Source of the DNA: Thalassospira xiamenensis M-5 = DSM 17429
GTDB lineage: Bacteria; Pseudomonadota; Alphaproteobacteria; Rhodospirillales; Thalassospiraceae
Assembly (NCBI RefSeq): GCF_000300235.2
Contig: NZ_CP004388.1
Location: 3,232,001-3,296,000, forward strand
Direction: 5' to 3'
DNA: 64,000 nucleotides
A program made the translations under genes and the position numbers. Positions 56,571-60,612 of this stretch are shown in pieces (the first letter of the stretch is position 1; each line of letters starts with the position of its first letter). The notes under the pieces were generated by a model. That model did not search any database. It saw only the letters and a program-made list of their open reading frames with translations, and was not told where the DNA came from.

Positions 56571-56802
56571 TCCCCGATTGGAGACTAATGCCCGGCAGGC
56601 ATATCGAGAAACATGTAGCAGCAATCGAAAAACACCGGCAAAGATGCCCCCGGACGGGGACGCTGCACGATGCAGGGTTGCCAATCGCGACGATTTGGAC
56701 TATCCGACGCTTTGAAAGCGTGCCGGAACCAGCATCGCACTTCGCTGATCACGCAATCTGGTCATGACCCGGCACCCAACCATCCTGCCCGGAGGCGACT
56801 GC

Positions 56803-58113
56803 ATGATCCCCCGTTATTCCCGTCCGCAGATGACATCAATCTGGGAACCGGCGAACAAATTCCGTATCTGGTTTGAAATCGAGGCACACGCTGCCGACAA
56901 ACTGGCCGAGTTGGGCGTCATTCCGACTGCCTCTGCCAAACTGGTCTGGGAAAAAGGCAACAAGCCCTATACCCAGGACCGTATTGATCGCATTGATGCT
57001 GTCGAAGCCGAAGTCAAGCACGACGTGATCGCCTTCCTGACGGAACTGGCAGAACTGGTCGGCGAAGAAGCCCGCTTCGTTCATCAGGGCATGACCAGCT
57101 CCGACGTTCTCGATACCTGCTTTAACGTGCAGCTCGTTCAGGCAACCGACATCCTGCTTGAAGATATGGACAAGCTTCTGGCCGCCCTTAAAAAGCGCGC
57201 CTATGAAACCAAGGACATCGCCTGCATGGGCCGTTCGCACGGCATCCATGCGGAGCCTGTGACCTTTGGCCTGAAACTGGCAACCTTCTATGCCGAATTC
57301 AAACGTAACCGCGACCGTCTGGTCGTCGCGCGTGAAGAAATCGCGACCTGTGCGATTTCCGGTGCGGTCGGCACATTTGCCAATATCGACCCGCAGGTCG
57401 AAGAACATGTTGCAGCCAAGCTTGGCCTGAAACCCGAACCGGTTTCAACCCAGGTGATCCCGCGCGACCGTCATGCCGCTTATTTCGCCGCCCTTGGCGT
57501 TATCGCATCCTCGGTCGAGCATCTCGCCACCGAAATCCGCCACCTGCAGCGCACCGAAGTTCGTGAAGTTGAGGAATTCTTCTCAAAGGGGCAGAAGGGT
57601 TCGTCGGCAATGCCGCACAAACGCAACCCGGTTCTGACCGAAAACCTGACCGGCCTTGCACGTCTTGTCCGTTCGATGGCGATCCCGGCCATGGAAAACG
57701 TCGCCCTGTGGCATGAACGTGATATTTCGCATTCATCGGTCGAACGCAATATCGGCCCGGATGCGACCGTAACCCTCGACTTTGCTTTGATGCGCCTGAC
57801 CAATGTGGTTGAAAACCTTGTCGTCTATCCGGAACGGATGGACGAAATCCTCAATCAGATGGGTGGTCTGGTCTTCTCGCAGCGCGTGCTGCTGACCCTG
57901 ACGCAGCATGGCGTTTCGCGCGAAGATTCGTACCGCATCGTTCAGCGCAACGCGATGAAGGTCTGGAACCGCGAAGGCGATCTGTTGTCGCTTCTGAAGA
58001 CCGATGCAGACGTTACCGCGAAAATCCCGATGGAAACGCTCGAAAGCCTGTTTGACCTTGGTTACCACACCAAGCATGTCGACACGATTTTCGCCCGCGT
58101 GTTTGCCGACTGA
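56803..58113 (+). CDS. purB: Adenylosuccinate lyase
   Basis: Catalyses two fumarate-releasing steps in purine synthesis (SAICAR to AICAR, and adenylosuccinate to AMP). The 436-residue protein begins MIPRYSRPQMTSIWEPANKFRIWFEIE and has HQGMTSSDVLDTCFN, MGRSHGIHAEP (catalytic His) and the flexible signature loop GSSAMPHKRNP with the catalytic Ser. Length and motifs fit the shorter bacterial class. The ATG at 56803 has GGAGGCGACTGC upstream; an ATG at 56764 has none. Its terminator was split by the IS element immediately downstream. Confidence 0.96.
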   Translation: MIPRYSRPQMTSIWEPANKFRIWFEIEAHAADKLAELGVIPTASAKLVWEKGNKPYTQDRIDRIDAVEAEVKHDVIAFLTELAELVGEEARFVHQGMTSSDVLDTCFNVQLVQATDILLEDMDKLLAALKKRAYETKDIACMGRSHGIHAEPVTFGLKLATFYAEFKRNRDRLVVAREEIATCAISGAVGTFANIDPQVEEHVAAKLGLKPEPVSTQVIPRDRHAAYFAALGVIASSVEHLATEIRHLQRTEVREVEEFFSKGQKGSSAMPHKRNPVLTENLTGLARLVRSMAIPAMENVALWHERDISHSSVERNIGPDATVTLDFALMRLTNVVENLVVYPERMDEILNQMGGLVFSQRVLLTLTQHGVSREDSYRIVQRNAMKVWNREGDLLSLLKTDADVTAKIPMETLESLFDLGYHTKHVDTIFARVFAD

Positions 58114-58136: not shown

Positions 58137-58164
58137 AAAGCCCCGGTCAATTTGCCGGGGCTTT
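58137..58164 (+). repeat. Left copy of 28-bp target duplication; truncated purB terminator
   Basis: AAAGCCCCGG-TCAATTTG-CCGGGGCTTT is a perfect 10-bp-stem palindrome. An identical copy in the same orientation is at 59670-59697. Here the T-run is cut to three by the IS end. Confidence 0.93.
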
Positions 58165-58176
58165 CAGACCGCTGAC

Positions 58177-58210
58177 AAACCCCGTCATATTTTGGCGGGG
58201 TTTTTCTTTT
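58177..58210 (+). terminator. Terminator inside the IS left end
   Basis: AAACCCCG (58177-58184) pairs with CGGGGTTT (58196-58203) and is followed by TTCTTTT on the plus strand. It can stop transcription arriving from purB, in place of the terminator the IS interrupted, and prevents antisense reading of the transposase gene. Confidence 0.7.
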
Positions 58211-58248
58211 AGAGGTGTTTGAAAGCTGGCTTGAGTGTGCCGAGGGGA

Positions 58249-59616
58249 TTATCCCTCAGCGATTGGCCCCTTGGGGCCCAAAGCCAGGGCTATTTTCTTG
58301 ATGTTTTGGGCGGCGGCGGCCAGCAGACATTGGCATTTGACATTGATCAGTCCCCGGAACCTTGCATATCGATGACCGTGAAGCTGTTTGGCATCTGCAA
58401 AAGAGCGTTCGACCGTCTCTTTTCGGCGCTTGTAAACCCGCTTACCCCACTCTGTCAGACGATAGGCGTCAGCCCGGTCTCTGGCGTCTTGCCAGACATG
58501 GCGCGTGACAGTTTTTCGGTGGTGGGCATTGGCGGTACAGGAAGCCAGCACAGGACAGGTGCGGCATTTTTCCGGGTCGCTGTGATAATGGCGGTATCCA
58601 TTTCGGTCGGTTGTCGCATAAGACAGAAGCTGACCTTCGGGGCAGCGATAAGCATCACGTTCAGGGTCATAAACGTATTTGCGTTTGGGGATGTAGCCTT
58701 CCGGAAGGTTCGGGCGGCGATAGCCCGTCACGCCAAGGATGTCACGATCTTCAAGGCCTTTGGCAATCGCGGCGGTCGCATAGCCCGCATCCAGTCCGAC
58801 GGCGATAACATCAAGGTCAAAACGCTGCCTTTGTCGGTCAAGACGGTCGAGATAGGGAATGCTGTCATGCAGATTGGCCGGGGTGGCGTAACTGTCGGTA
58901 ATGATCCCAAGCTTGCCATCGACCGTGCGGTGATCGAGATAGAAAAAGCCCTTGGGCTTGCCGTCGCGCACCATATATCCGCTGTCGGGATCGGTTCGGC
59001 TGATCTTGGTTTCTTTCTCAACCGGCTGGCGTTCCTTGGCTTTGAGCGGCTTTTTCGCATGAGCCGCCCGGTCTTCCTCAATCGCCAGATCCAGATCATC
59101 CCAATAGGCCGCGCGCGATTTGGCAACCACTTCGCGGTCCCATTTGTTCTTGTTGGCATCGGCCTTCAAATGCGTGCTGTCGGTATAGAGAACCTTACCA
59201 TCCACCAGCCCGTGCCTGATCGCCTGCTCGACGATCTCGTCAAAAATATCCTGCGCAACACTGGCATCATGATATCGACGCCGCCGGTTCTGCGACAGGG
59301 TCGAGGCATCAAAGACCTTGTCGGTCAGCTTGAGTTGCAAAAACCAGCGATAGGCGACATTGACCTCAATCTCGCGCACAAGCTGGCGCTCCGAGCGCAC
59401 GCCAAACAGATAGCCAATGAACAGCGCCTTAAACATCATCACCGGATCAAGGGCGGGACGGCCATTGTTCGCGCAGTACAAATCGGCCACGCGCGCATGG
59501 ATAAAACTGAAATCGATCACGGCATCGATCTTACGAAGCAAATGATCGCTGGGGACCAAACTGTCGAGTGTCACCATCTCAAGTTCGGTTTGATGTGGGC
59601 TGGGTTTCTTAAGCAT
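58249..59616 (-). CDS. IS1182-family DDE transposase
   Basis: A 455-residue complete transposase. The start region MLKKPSPHQTELEMVTLDSLVPSDHLLRKIDAVIDFSFI is the DUF772 N-terminal part. The DDE core includes VLYTDSTHLKADANKNKWD (first Asp), AVGLDAGYATAAIAKGLEDRDILGVTGYRRP (second Asp) and a late RRKETVERSFADAKQLHGHRYARFRG with the catalytic Glu. A cysteine-rich zinc-type stretch (AYRCPEGQLL, CRTCPVLASC) is typical of the family. The ATG at 59616 is chosen; a TTG at 59631 with GGCGGGG upstream would add five residues. No frameshift or internal stop was seen, so the element may be active. Confidence 0.93.
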   Translation of the reverse strand: MLKKPSPHQTELEMVTLDSLVPSDHLLRKIDAVIDFSFIHARVADLYCANNGRPALDPVMMFKALFIGYLFGVRSERQLVREIEVNVAYRWFLQLKLTDKVFDASTLSQNRRRRYHDASVAQDIFDEIVEQAIRHGLVDGKVLYTDSTHLKADANKNKWDREVVAKSRAAYWDDLDLAIEEDRAAHAKKPLKAKERQPVEKETKISRTDPDSGYMVRDGKPKGFFYLDHRTVDGKLGIITDSYATPANLHDSIPYLDRLDRQRQRFDLDVIAVGLDAGYATAAIAKGLEDRDILGVTGYRRPNLPEGYIPKRKYVYDPERDAYRCPEGQLLSYATTDRNGYRHYHSDPEKCRTCPVLASCTANAHHRKTVTRHVWQDARDRADAYRLTEWGKRVYKRRKETVERSFADAKQLHGHRYARFRGLINVKCQCLLAAAAQNIKKIALALGPKGPIAEG

Positions 59617-59669
59617 TCCCCATTGAATCAAAAATCCCCGCCAATGGCGAGGACTTTGTCAGCAGTCTG

Positions 59670-59697
59670 AAAGCCCCGGTCAATTTGCCGGGGCTTT
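59670..59697 (+). repeat. Right copy of 28-bp target duplication, with full T-run
   Basis: This copy is identical to 58137-58164 and continues into TTT CG, giving the complete six-T tail of the ancestral purB terminator. It can also serve the convergent LysR gene. Confidence 0.93.
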
Positions 59698-59703
59698 TTT
59701 CGT

Positions 59704-60612
59704 TTACGGGTTTTGCGACAATGTCAGTTCCCGTGCCTCGCCCAGCAGCCAGTCGCGAAACAGCTTCACCTGACCGCGCAGTTCCCGGTTTTTTGGATGC
59801 ACCAGATAGTATCCCGAAGGAACGGCCAGAACCTGTTCGGGGAACAGATGGACCAGCTTGCCTTCCATCACGTCTTCTTCGGCCAGCAATGGATTGGCCA
59901 TTACCACACCCTGTCCGTGAATCGCGGCCTCGATTGCCATGGATGTCTGATCGATTTCAATGCGCTTGATTGCGGCAATCTCGCTTGGGTTCATCCTGGC
60001 AAACTGGCCAAGCCATTCTTCCCACCAGTCATGCAGAATGTCGTTTAACAAAGTAGCACGCGCCAGATCGGCTGGATGCTCAAACCCCATGCGGTCGCGA
60101 TAGGCCGGCGAACAGAATGCCGCCGCCTGACCGCGATAGATCAGGACGGATTCAAGTTTGTCGTCATTGCCGTCAAAATACCGCACGGCAATATCGACCG
60201 GATCGCGATCAAAATCCGTAAATTGCACCGACGACCCGACATGAAGTGACGTTGACGGATAATCGATCAGGAACCGCGCCATCCGTTTGGAAAACCATTT
60301 CGCGGCAAAACTTGGCGGCATGACCACACGCACCGTATGTTCGCGCTGCCCGCGCAAATGCTGACTGGCATCGATGATCTGCAGCAAGGCGGGTGATATG
60401 CGCGCGGCATAATCAAGCCCGTCGGCTGTCGGTTTCACCTGCCGGACCGAGCGAACAAACAGTTCCACCCCTAGCCAGTCTTCAAGCTTTCTGAGCTGCT
60501 GCCCGACGGCACCCGGCGTCACATTCAGCTCTTCCGCTGCACGAGAAAAACTATTCAATCGAATAGATGCCTCGAACGCACGCAAGGAATTGAGCGGCGG
60601 ATATGAACTCAT
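59704..60612 (-). CDS. GcvA-like LysR-family regulator
   Basis: A 302-residue LysR regulator of the GcvA group. PPLNSLRAFEASIRLNSFSRAAEELNVTPGAVGQQLRKLEDWLGVELFVRS is the DNA-binding end with the group phrase LNVTPGAVGQQ. The effector part has VRVVMPPSFAAKWFSKRMARFLIDYPSTSLHVGSS and VDIAVRYFDGND. It is divergent from an EamA transporter gene with starts about 97 bp apart, so control of that exporter is likely. The ATG at 60612 is the first in frame. Confidence 0.9.
   Translation of the reverse strand: MSSYPPLNSLRAFEASIRLNSFSRAAEELNVTPGAVGQQLRKLEDWLGVELFVRSVRQVKPTADGLDYAARISPALLQIIDASQHLRGQREHTVRVVMPPSFAAKWFSKRMARFLIDYPSTSLHVGSSVQFTDFDRDPVDIAVRYFDGNDDKLESVLIYRGQAAAFCSPAYRDRMGFEHPADLARATLLNDILHDWWEEWLGQFARMNPSEIAAIKRIEIDQTSMAIEAAIHGQGVVMANPLLAEEDVMEGKLVHLFPEQVLAVPSGYYLVHPKNRELRGQVKLFRDWLLGEARELTLSQNP

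Follow-up and report, generated by a model that had tools for sequence, protein, structure and literature searches.

The 1505-bp insertion sequence found downstream of purB in Thalassospira xiamenensis M-5 stands between two whole copies of the stem-loop into which it was inserted, and stem-loops adjoin both ends of all 22 full-length copies of the element in this genome. The DDE transposase of its clade probably picks the target by shape, recognising positions that pair with each other at the foot of a stem-loop or close to it, and the enclosed stem-loop would be duplicated by way of an extruded hairpin. With two active sites that cut linear DNA at a constant stagger, a DDE transposase would be expected to produce duplications of one fixed length. 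The present clade, whose distant relatives make fixed short duplications, leaves duplications of 14-47 nt at hairpin sites that are symmetric about the stem. The old question of whether short palindromes extrude in vivo and can be recognised by enzymes thereby becomes testable by means of sequenced insertions.

The insertion downstream of purB

The window (the whole stretch of 64,000 nt that was analysed) contains the element between purB and a gene for a LysR-type regulator, and the features of the site are listed in Table 1. A preceding sequence-only reading had proposed an IS1182 element flanked by an exact 28-nt hairpin duplication, with inverted repeats abutting the hairpin copies. Both proposals were confirmed, the two 28-nt sequences being identical, with the element between them, and CAGAC being read inward from both tips (58165 and 59669). 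Its statement that only the right copy keeps the full T-run also holds, since the left copy has TTT as its last letters, directly next to the element, and the right copy continues into TTTTTT.

Table 1. Features of the insertion site (positions in the window)
Feature	Position	Strand	Remarks
purB, adenylosuccinate lyase	56764..58113	+	ORF and NCBIfam TIGR00928 (3.2e-150); gene upstream of the target hairpin
Left copy of duplicated target hairpin	58137..58164		28 nt, 10-bp arms, 8-nt loop; single in relatives
IS1182-family insertion sequence, 1505 bp	58165..59669	-	22 full-length copies in the genome
12-nt terminal inverted repeat, distal (3') end, CAGACCGCTGAC	58165..58176	+
Subterminal hairpin, 3' end, AAA...TTT foot	58177..58203	+	T-rich run inward; inward-facing, terminator-like
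Transposase gene, 455 aa, DDE type (DUF772 + DDE_Tnp_1_6)	58249..59616	-
Subterminal hairpin, 5' (transposase-start) end, AAA...TTT foot	59631..59657	-	T-run inward
12-nt terminal inverted repeat, transposase-start (5') end, CAGACTGCTGAC read inward	59658..59669	-
Right copy of duplicated target hairpin	59670..59697		Keeps T-run; single in relatives
LysR-type regulator gene	59704..60612	-	Best NCBIfam model GcvA subfamily, below its cut-off; convergent with purB

In a terminator scan, each hairpin copy was called terminator-like on one strand, the right copy on + and the left on -, and the 2 kb scanned held six terminator-like sites versus 2.4 (sd 2.1) in shuffled sequences. There are 23 nt between the stop of purB (58113) and the left copy, and 6 nt between the right copy and the stop of the LysR-type gene on the other strand. 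The hairpin had been taken for the terminator of purB. Its terminator-like character stood; however, because it sits between the stops of two convergent genes, its sequence context suggests that it is probably a terminator common to purB and the LysR-type gene and not that of purB alone.

The element consists of a single transposase ORF and terminal inverted repeats with the tips CAGACCGCTGACAAAC and CAGACTGCTGACAAAG, which fits the IS1182 family. The transposase scored 486.4 bits against the NCBI IS1182 model NF033551 (cut-off 270). Its Pfam and NCBIfam matches, obtained with a slightly longer reading of the frame than 455 aa, are DDE transposase families, not the HUH or DEDD enzymes of IS200/IS605 and IS110. 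The AlphaFold model of the transposase has a mean pLDDT of 76.9, and its nearest structure is the Tn5 transposase, a weak match (TM-score 0.34); no solved structure matched the transposase by sequence up to E 0.1.

Copies in the genome and empty sites in the genus

The 22 full-length copies are 99.1-100% identical and all lie on the 4.58-Mb contig, where a search of the genome with the 15-nt tip gave 44 exact matches, namely the elements' own ends. The stem sequences next to the copies differ between sites. Exact direct-repeat hairpins of 21-32 nt are present at 17 copies, and at the other five (L002, L005, L008, L016, and L019) the two hairpin copies differ by 1-3 nt at one junction. Apart from the window site, all 21 copies thus lie in hairpins with duplications of 18-32 nt (the shared part only in the five altered ones), in agreement with the earlier expectation of similar duplications elsewhere. 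At all 22 sites, at least four T occur in the 8 nt after the duplicated core or at least four A in the 8 nt before it (a raw count without control), a pattern that resembles that of intrinsic terminators. Eleven sites lie between convergent genes according to mechanical ORF calls, in which gene families were checked only for the two genes of the window.

Empty sites were sought by joining the flanks of each of the 22 sites, searching the joined sequence against the genus, and aligning chosen matches. In this search, which scored 10 candidates per genome and was not exhaustive, 18 of the 22 sites were found empty, with one hairpin and both flanks aligned, in at least one relative. Thirteen of the 18 are supplied by one genome (G019), which showed no match to the element. 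At L006, L008, and L009, only the hairpin region and one flank aligned well, and for L014 no empty site was found in the genus search. The site of the window is empty in G019 (L024; 96.3% identical over the site, with an identical hairpin) and in G008 (L040; 90.2%), as the sequence-only reading had anticipated for close relatives. These single-hairpin empty sites identify the second hairpin as a product of the insertion. In addition, a chance origin of the window arrangement is excluded, because all 22 full-length copies show it and relatives have one hairpin and no element. Neither IS-free relatives with two hairpins nor copies at non-palindromic sites without duplication, which would have spoken against the earlier reading, were seen for this genome.

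Among the matches listed in the other 28 genomes of the genus (several of them drafts), at 12 candidates scored per genome in a search that was not exhaustive, there was no full-length, near-identical match to the element, the longest being 71% identical (G003). Exact matches of 23-26 nt to the right tip of the element were observed at contig ends of two drafts (C14, C19, and C26 of G002 and C133 of G021), which are possibly collapsed, hidden copies of a close relative.

Several further observations concern the population of copies. The transposase gene is intact in 13 of the 22. Four copies have an identical one-base insertion within the transposase gene (alignment column 664 of the element), which points either to movement of defective copies in trans or to an assembly error. 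No MITE with the tips of the element was found in the genome at up to one mismatch, while a control pattern matched twice, and six further one-mismatch tips form no inverted pair. Isolated one-mismatch tips (CGGACCGCTGACAAA) occur at C1:744293, 744451, and 660374; two of the three have an element copy at most about 350 nt away, and all are possible remnants of the element. A 34-bp match at C1:909496 was considered as a solo end and rejected, as it is an ordinary terminator-like hairpin of the host that is nearly identical to the left subterminal hairpin of the element. A copy-free gap of 1.42 Mb surrounds the replication origin (C1 3898031 through 0 to 742609, with dnaA at C1:165); for 22 random points, such an origin-spanning gap has a probability of about 0.003, the test having been chosen after the map was seen.

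The map of the copies also bears on the idea that, in the manner of IS200/IS605, the element inserts into a hairpin folded from a single strand at the replication fork and not into a cruciform. Hairpins form easily on the lagging-strand template, and the position of the copies away from the origin, though not predicted by a fork model, hints at a link with replication or dosage. However, the orientation of the element relative to replication is unbiased (11 of 22, with the terminus assumed to lie halfway), which mildly disfavours the idea, the transposase is a DDE enzyme, and duplication of a whole hairpin on both strands would be hard to obtain from one folded strand. A fork hairpin is accordingly unlikely, and an extruded hairpin in double-stranded DNA is preferred.

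Distribution of the habit in the IS1182 family

The search for related transposases led to 80 loci in proteobacteria, Lentisphaerota, Bacillota, and others, with best segments of 51-81% identity. Element ends were set by the tip motif; 127 of the 160 possible ends were found and 114 were used, 13 being left out because of a flank shorter than 25 nt or an N. A foot-anchored stem of at least 6 bp is present at the junction of 101 of the 114 usable ends, in comparison with 384 of 18178 control positions (2.1%), and seven ends lack even a foot-anchored stem of 5 bp. These 114 ends are not all independent, as both ends of one insertion and several copies per genome were counted. The sample was extended by 40 regions, hand-picked and non-random, from among the matches above the family cut-off when 299 genomes of the phylum were scanned, and by 13 regions from plasmids; L147 and L157 were dropped, as their longest central ORF is not a transposase.

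Relatives near the element of the window make hairpin duplications, as do the Enterococcus elements L183 and L184 at about 41% identity. At the same identity, a copy of ISEfa7 (one insertion, seen as L182 and L188) lacks a duplication and adjoins a hairpin on one side only. Members at about 23-30% identity whose ends could be set (L155, L158-L160, and others) have short duplications, nearly all of 4 bp, outside hairpins. In a tree of 60 transposases (what remained of 91 sequences after removal of near copies), 31 hairpin rows are separated from 13 short-duplication rows by one change. Labels from the tip motif took precedence there, some hairpin rows rest on one end, and the remaining 16 rows are unclear; if these are treated as a third state, the hairpin label needs five changes. 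The long rows L187 and L190 have an uncertain place. L190, a distant IS1182 member that stands in tandem with another on Lysinibacillus capsici plasmid pFN9B, is flanked by a duplicated 32-nt hairpin and is about 31% identical to an Enterococcus member, a hint that the hairpin habit extends past the main clade. Another plasmid copy, L198 from S. simulans, lies in AT-rich DNA without a clear hairpin.

As far as the compared sequences reach, hairpin duplication is shown to be the habit of one large clade within the NCBI-modelled IS1182, extending into other phyla. A palindromic target had earlier been ascribed to the family as such. This is true of the large clade, but distant members make their short duplications at non-hairpin sites, and IS1272 deletes hairpins.

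Symmetry of the duplications

The comparison of duplications, which skipped repeats already seen, comprised 64 duplications, 11 of them with a difference between the copies; the 53 unaltered ones come from this genome (17) and from other genomes (36). In 16 of the 17 exact copies of this genome, a script placed the two cut points at equal distances from the hairpin axis, and the 17th (L009), which has a bulged stem, is symmetric by eye. Relative to the longest possible stem, the cut was at the outermost pair in five of the 16 scored copies, 1-5 mostly A-T pairs inside in ten, and one pair outside in one. The idea that the duplication matches the complete terminator stem is therefore correct for the window site and four others, but it does not extend to the rest.

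Over the 53 unaltered duplications, at least five of the six outer positions pair in exact register in 50, versus 0-2 when one side is shifted by 1, 2, or 3 nt. The lengths range from 9 to 47 nt (21-32 nt in this genome and 9-47 nt in the others). Three duplications fail the symmetry count, among them the 9-nt one of L124, and convincing hairpin duplications thus start at 14 nt. The longest seen, 47 nt, is that of L191 on an Enterococcus faecium plasmid, where the duplicated hairpin has about 20 bp in its stem. Duplication length and longest possible stem have a correlation of -0.10, because stems run on into the flanking A/T runs and one bulged stem was mis-scored; the length is therefore not simply that of the maximal stem, and the informative quantity is the symmetry. 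A fixed stagger on linear DNA was rejected, since the lengths vary while the symmetry holds.

It is conceivable that the inverted repeat is recognised in its linear, double-stranded form by two transposase subunits, one on each arm, which cut outside the arms with flexible spacing. Dimeric readers of inverted repeats are common, and 46 of the 53 duplications start with A (44 end with T), possibly a weak sequence signal. Such a dimer would, however, have to be implausibly elastic, given lengths of 14-47 nt, varied loops, and no common stem sequence, and the bulged stem of L009 is still cut at paired positions (by eye). This explanation appears quite improbable next to recognition of the folded stem-loop.

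It could also be asked whether insertion is broad and only harmless insertions into terminators survive. Insertions between convergent genes cost little, and half of the sites in this genome look convergent. Selection cannot, however, set a cut to the base, as the exact register and the stem foot at the junction would require, and insertions into other intergenic DNA would survive too. Survivor bias is therefore very hard to credit as the cause, and target choice by the shape of the stem-loop remains the preferred reading.

One-sided differences and rearranged copies

Where the two hairpin copies differ, the change is on the transposase-start side at all 11 loci (L002, L005, L008, L016, and L019 in this genome, and L071, L087, L114, L134, L094, and L152) and on the other side at none. 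At nine of the 11, it lies within 3 nt of the junction, while in L094 and L152 it is 6-7 nt in. For L002, L005, and L019, the start-side copy is the changed one, because relatives agree with the other copy. A symmetric attack neither predicts nor explains these one-sided differences.

Eight loci have no shared repeat at the two ends. Different hairpins at the two ends of one element were observed in L197 and L201 (both on the S. simulans plasmid NZ_CP023496), L096, L105, L110, L122, L145, and L189. On NZ_CP023496, two copies of one hairpin, in reverse complement, are found at two different copies of the element, an arrangement that is a sign of inversion between element copies.

Loci of this kind could suggest that the second hairpin was already present or arose by recombination and not by target duplication: eight have different hairpins or no shared repeat at their two ends, and the plasmid arrangement is that expected after an inversion. 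Such an origin is contradicted by the empty sites, as relatives have one hairpin at the 18 sites with both flanks aligned and the genome that supplies most of them showed no match to the element. It has next to no likelihood as a general explanation, and duplication of the target during insertion is retained.

Hairpins at the tips of the element

Elements of the clade have 12 nt at each end (CAGACTGCTGAC and variants), after which a second hairpin usually comes, its foot being AAA...TTT. Stems of eight or more Watson-Crick pairs with the foot 12 nt in were found at 81 of 93 distinct ends versus 472 of 28440 control windows, the mis-assigned end L069_5p and near-identical ends having been left out of the count. 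Five of the 12 misses have a terminal repeat that itself folds into a hairpin. In 51 distinct subterminal stems, the paired columns are 89% Watson-Crick versus 62% after shuffling, a figure that is inflated because the stems were chosen for pairing. Members with short duplications have a subterminal stem at 2 of 21 ends, even with a wider offset range.

With one hairpin 12 nt inside and the host hairpin outside, the 12-nt tip is thus usually flanked by a similarly built hairpin on either side. Tip hairpins and hairpin targeting go together across a single evolutionary split, and their association therefore counts as one event and not as repeated evidence. In the window, each of the two subterminal hairpins (from 58177 onward and from 59657 downward) has a T-rich run on its inner side, and the hairpins together with these runs would be predicted to stop transcription entering the element from either side.

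Proposed mechanism

In DDE enzymes, the two 3' ends of the element attack the two target strands, and gap repair makes the duplication. This scheme is summarised in PMC5678879.

In the case of the present clade, the target would in practice be a hairpin resembling an intrinsic terminator, cut most often at an A-T pair. Once the hairpin is extruded, the 3' ends of the element would attack both 5' feet, which lie close together at a four-way junction whatever the length of the stem; with the feet adjacent, repair would copy the whole stem-loop. Partial extrusion may place the cuts a few pairs inside the longest stem. The same hairpin-reading module may use the hairpins 12 nt inside both tips. 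A terminator would be kept on each side of the insertion with two more facing inward, so that host genes would be spared and the transposase gene shielded from outside transcription. Landing in terminators and leaving one on each side suggests a route to 22 copies at little cost, and a transposase whose insertions fall immediately after genes and leave them intact could serve as a practical insertion tool.

Some facts speak against a model based on shape. Stems of 8-10 bp are poor cruciforms in relaxed DNA, which counts against extrusion. The ISEfa7 copy (L182/L188), L198, the seven stemless ends among 114, and the three asymmetric duplications among 53 also do not fit. Taken with these points, the choice of target by stem-loop shape and its duplication through an extruded hairpin is still regarded as fairly likely for this clade. 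A wider generalisation has somewhat less than even odds: a clade of DDE transposases may read shape, both as a stem-loop at their own tips and as a like stem-loop in the target, with the duplication length set by the target stem and the cut made at the four-way junction. Which foot is attacked, or whether a foot is read at all, would then alone decide between duplication of the stem-loop in this clade, its deletion by IS1272, and the indifference to it of the 4-bp members.

Comparison with known systems

Palindromes have been reported as targets of some IS1182 members (Siguier et al. 2015, cited in PMC4923244 and PMC5678879), and this trait is seen here at 22 of 22 copies. The closest parallels are IS1272 and TnSha1 of staphylococci, also of the IS1182 family, which according to the same two papers insert into hairpins of varied sequence, with shape rather than sequence being read. 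In Furi et al. (PMC4923244), several hairpin targets were confirmed as terminators by RNA-seq, and insertion was accompanied by deletion, without duplication. The likeness to the present element thus extends to family, varied hairpin targets, terminators, and reading of shape. In contrast, IS1272, compared here by its published description, removes all or part of the hairpin without duplication, whereas the element of the window duplicates it, the hairpin being present twice at the element and once in relatives. Wan et al. 2017 (PMC5678879) observed hairpin loss for IS1272 but drew a duplication of the whole hairpin as pathway b of their Fig. 13. The present data match the prediction of that pathway, a stem-loop duplicated at both ends of the element.

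In the open-licence full texts searched, neither a symmetry rule for the duplication of whole terminators nor subterminal hairpins nor one-sided differences were found described; curated IS notes may already record palindromic repeats. Relative to that literature, the symmetry rule on whole-terminator duplication, the hairpin 12 nt inside the tips, and the one-sided differences were not found in print and appear to be new.

Other IS1182 members are described with 4-bp duplications: ISPse1 (PMC3281130), ISCaa15 (PMC3196728), and MITEPye1 with ISPye18-like ends (PMC11578231). They share with the present element the family or the NCBI transposase model, a similar size, and in some cases similar first bases of the terminal repeat. 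They differ in the 4-bp duplication, as opposed to 21-32 nt in the 17 exact copies here, and the tested loci lack a target hairpin and rarely have a subterminal one. PMC12056078 states that IS1182-related transposases act with or without target duplication, on sequences or structures.

Two more distant groups resemble the element in single respects. The IS110/IS1111 group, including ISPpu9 at REP or palindromic sites, also inserts into palindromic extragenic DNA, but it uses a DEDD transposase, a guide RNA, and a conserved target sequence (cf. PMC11187229 and PMC8450116), whereas a DDE transposase and unrelated stems are found here. In IS200/IS605 (IS608 and ISDra2), secondary structures occur at both ends of the element as well (PMC6006769); however, these systems depend on an HUH enzyme and single-stranded intermediates and make no target duplication, while the present element combines a DDE transposase with duplication of its target.
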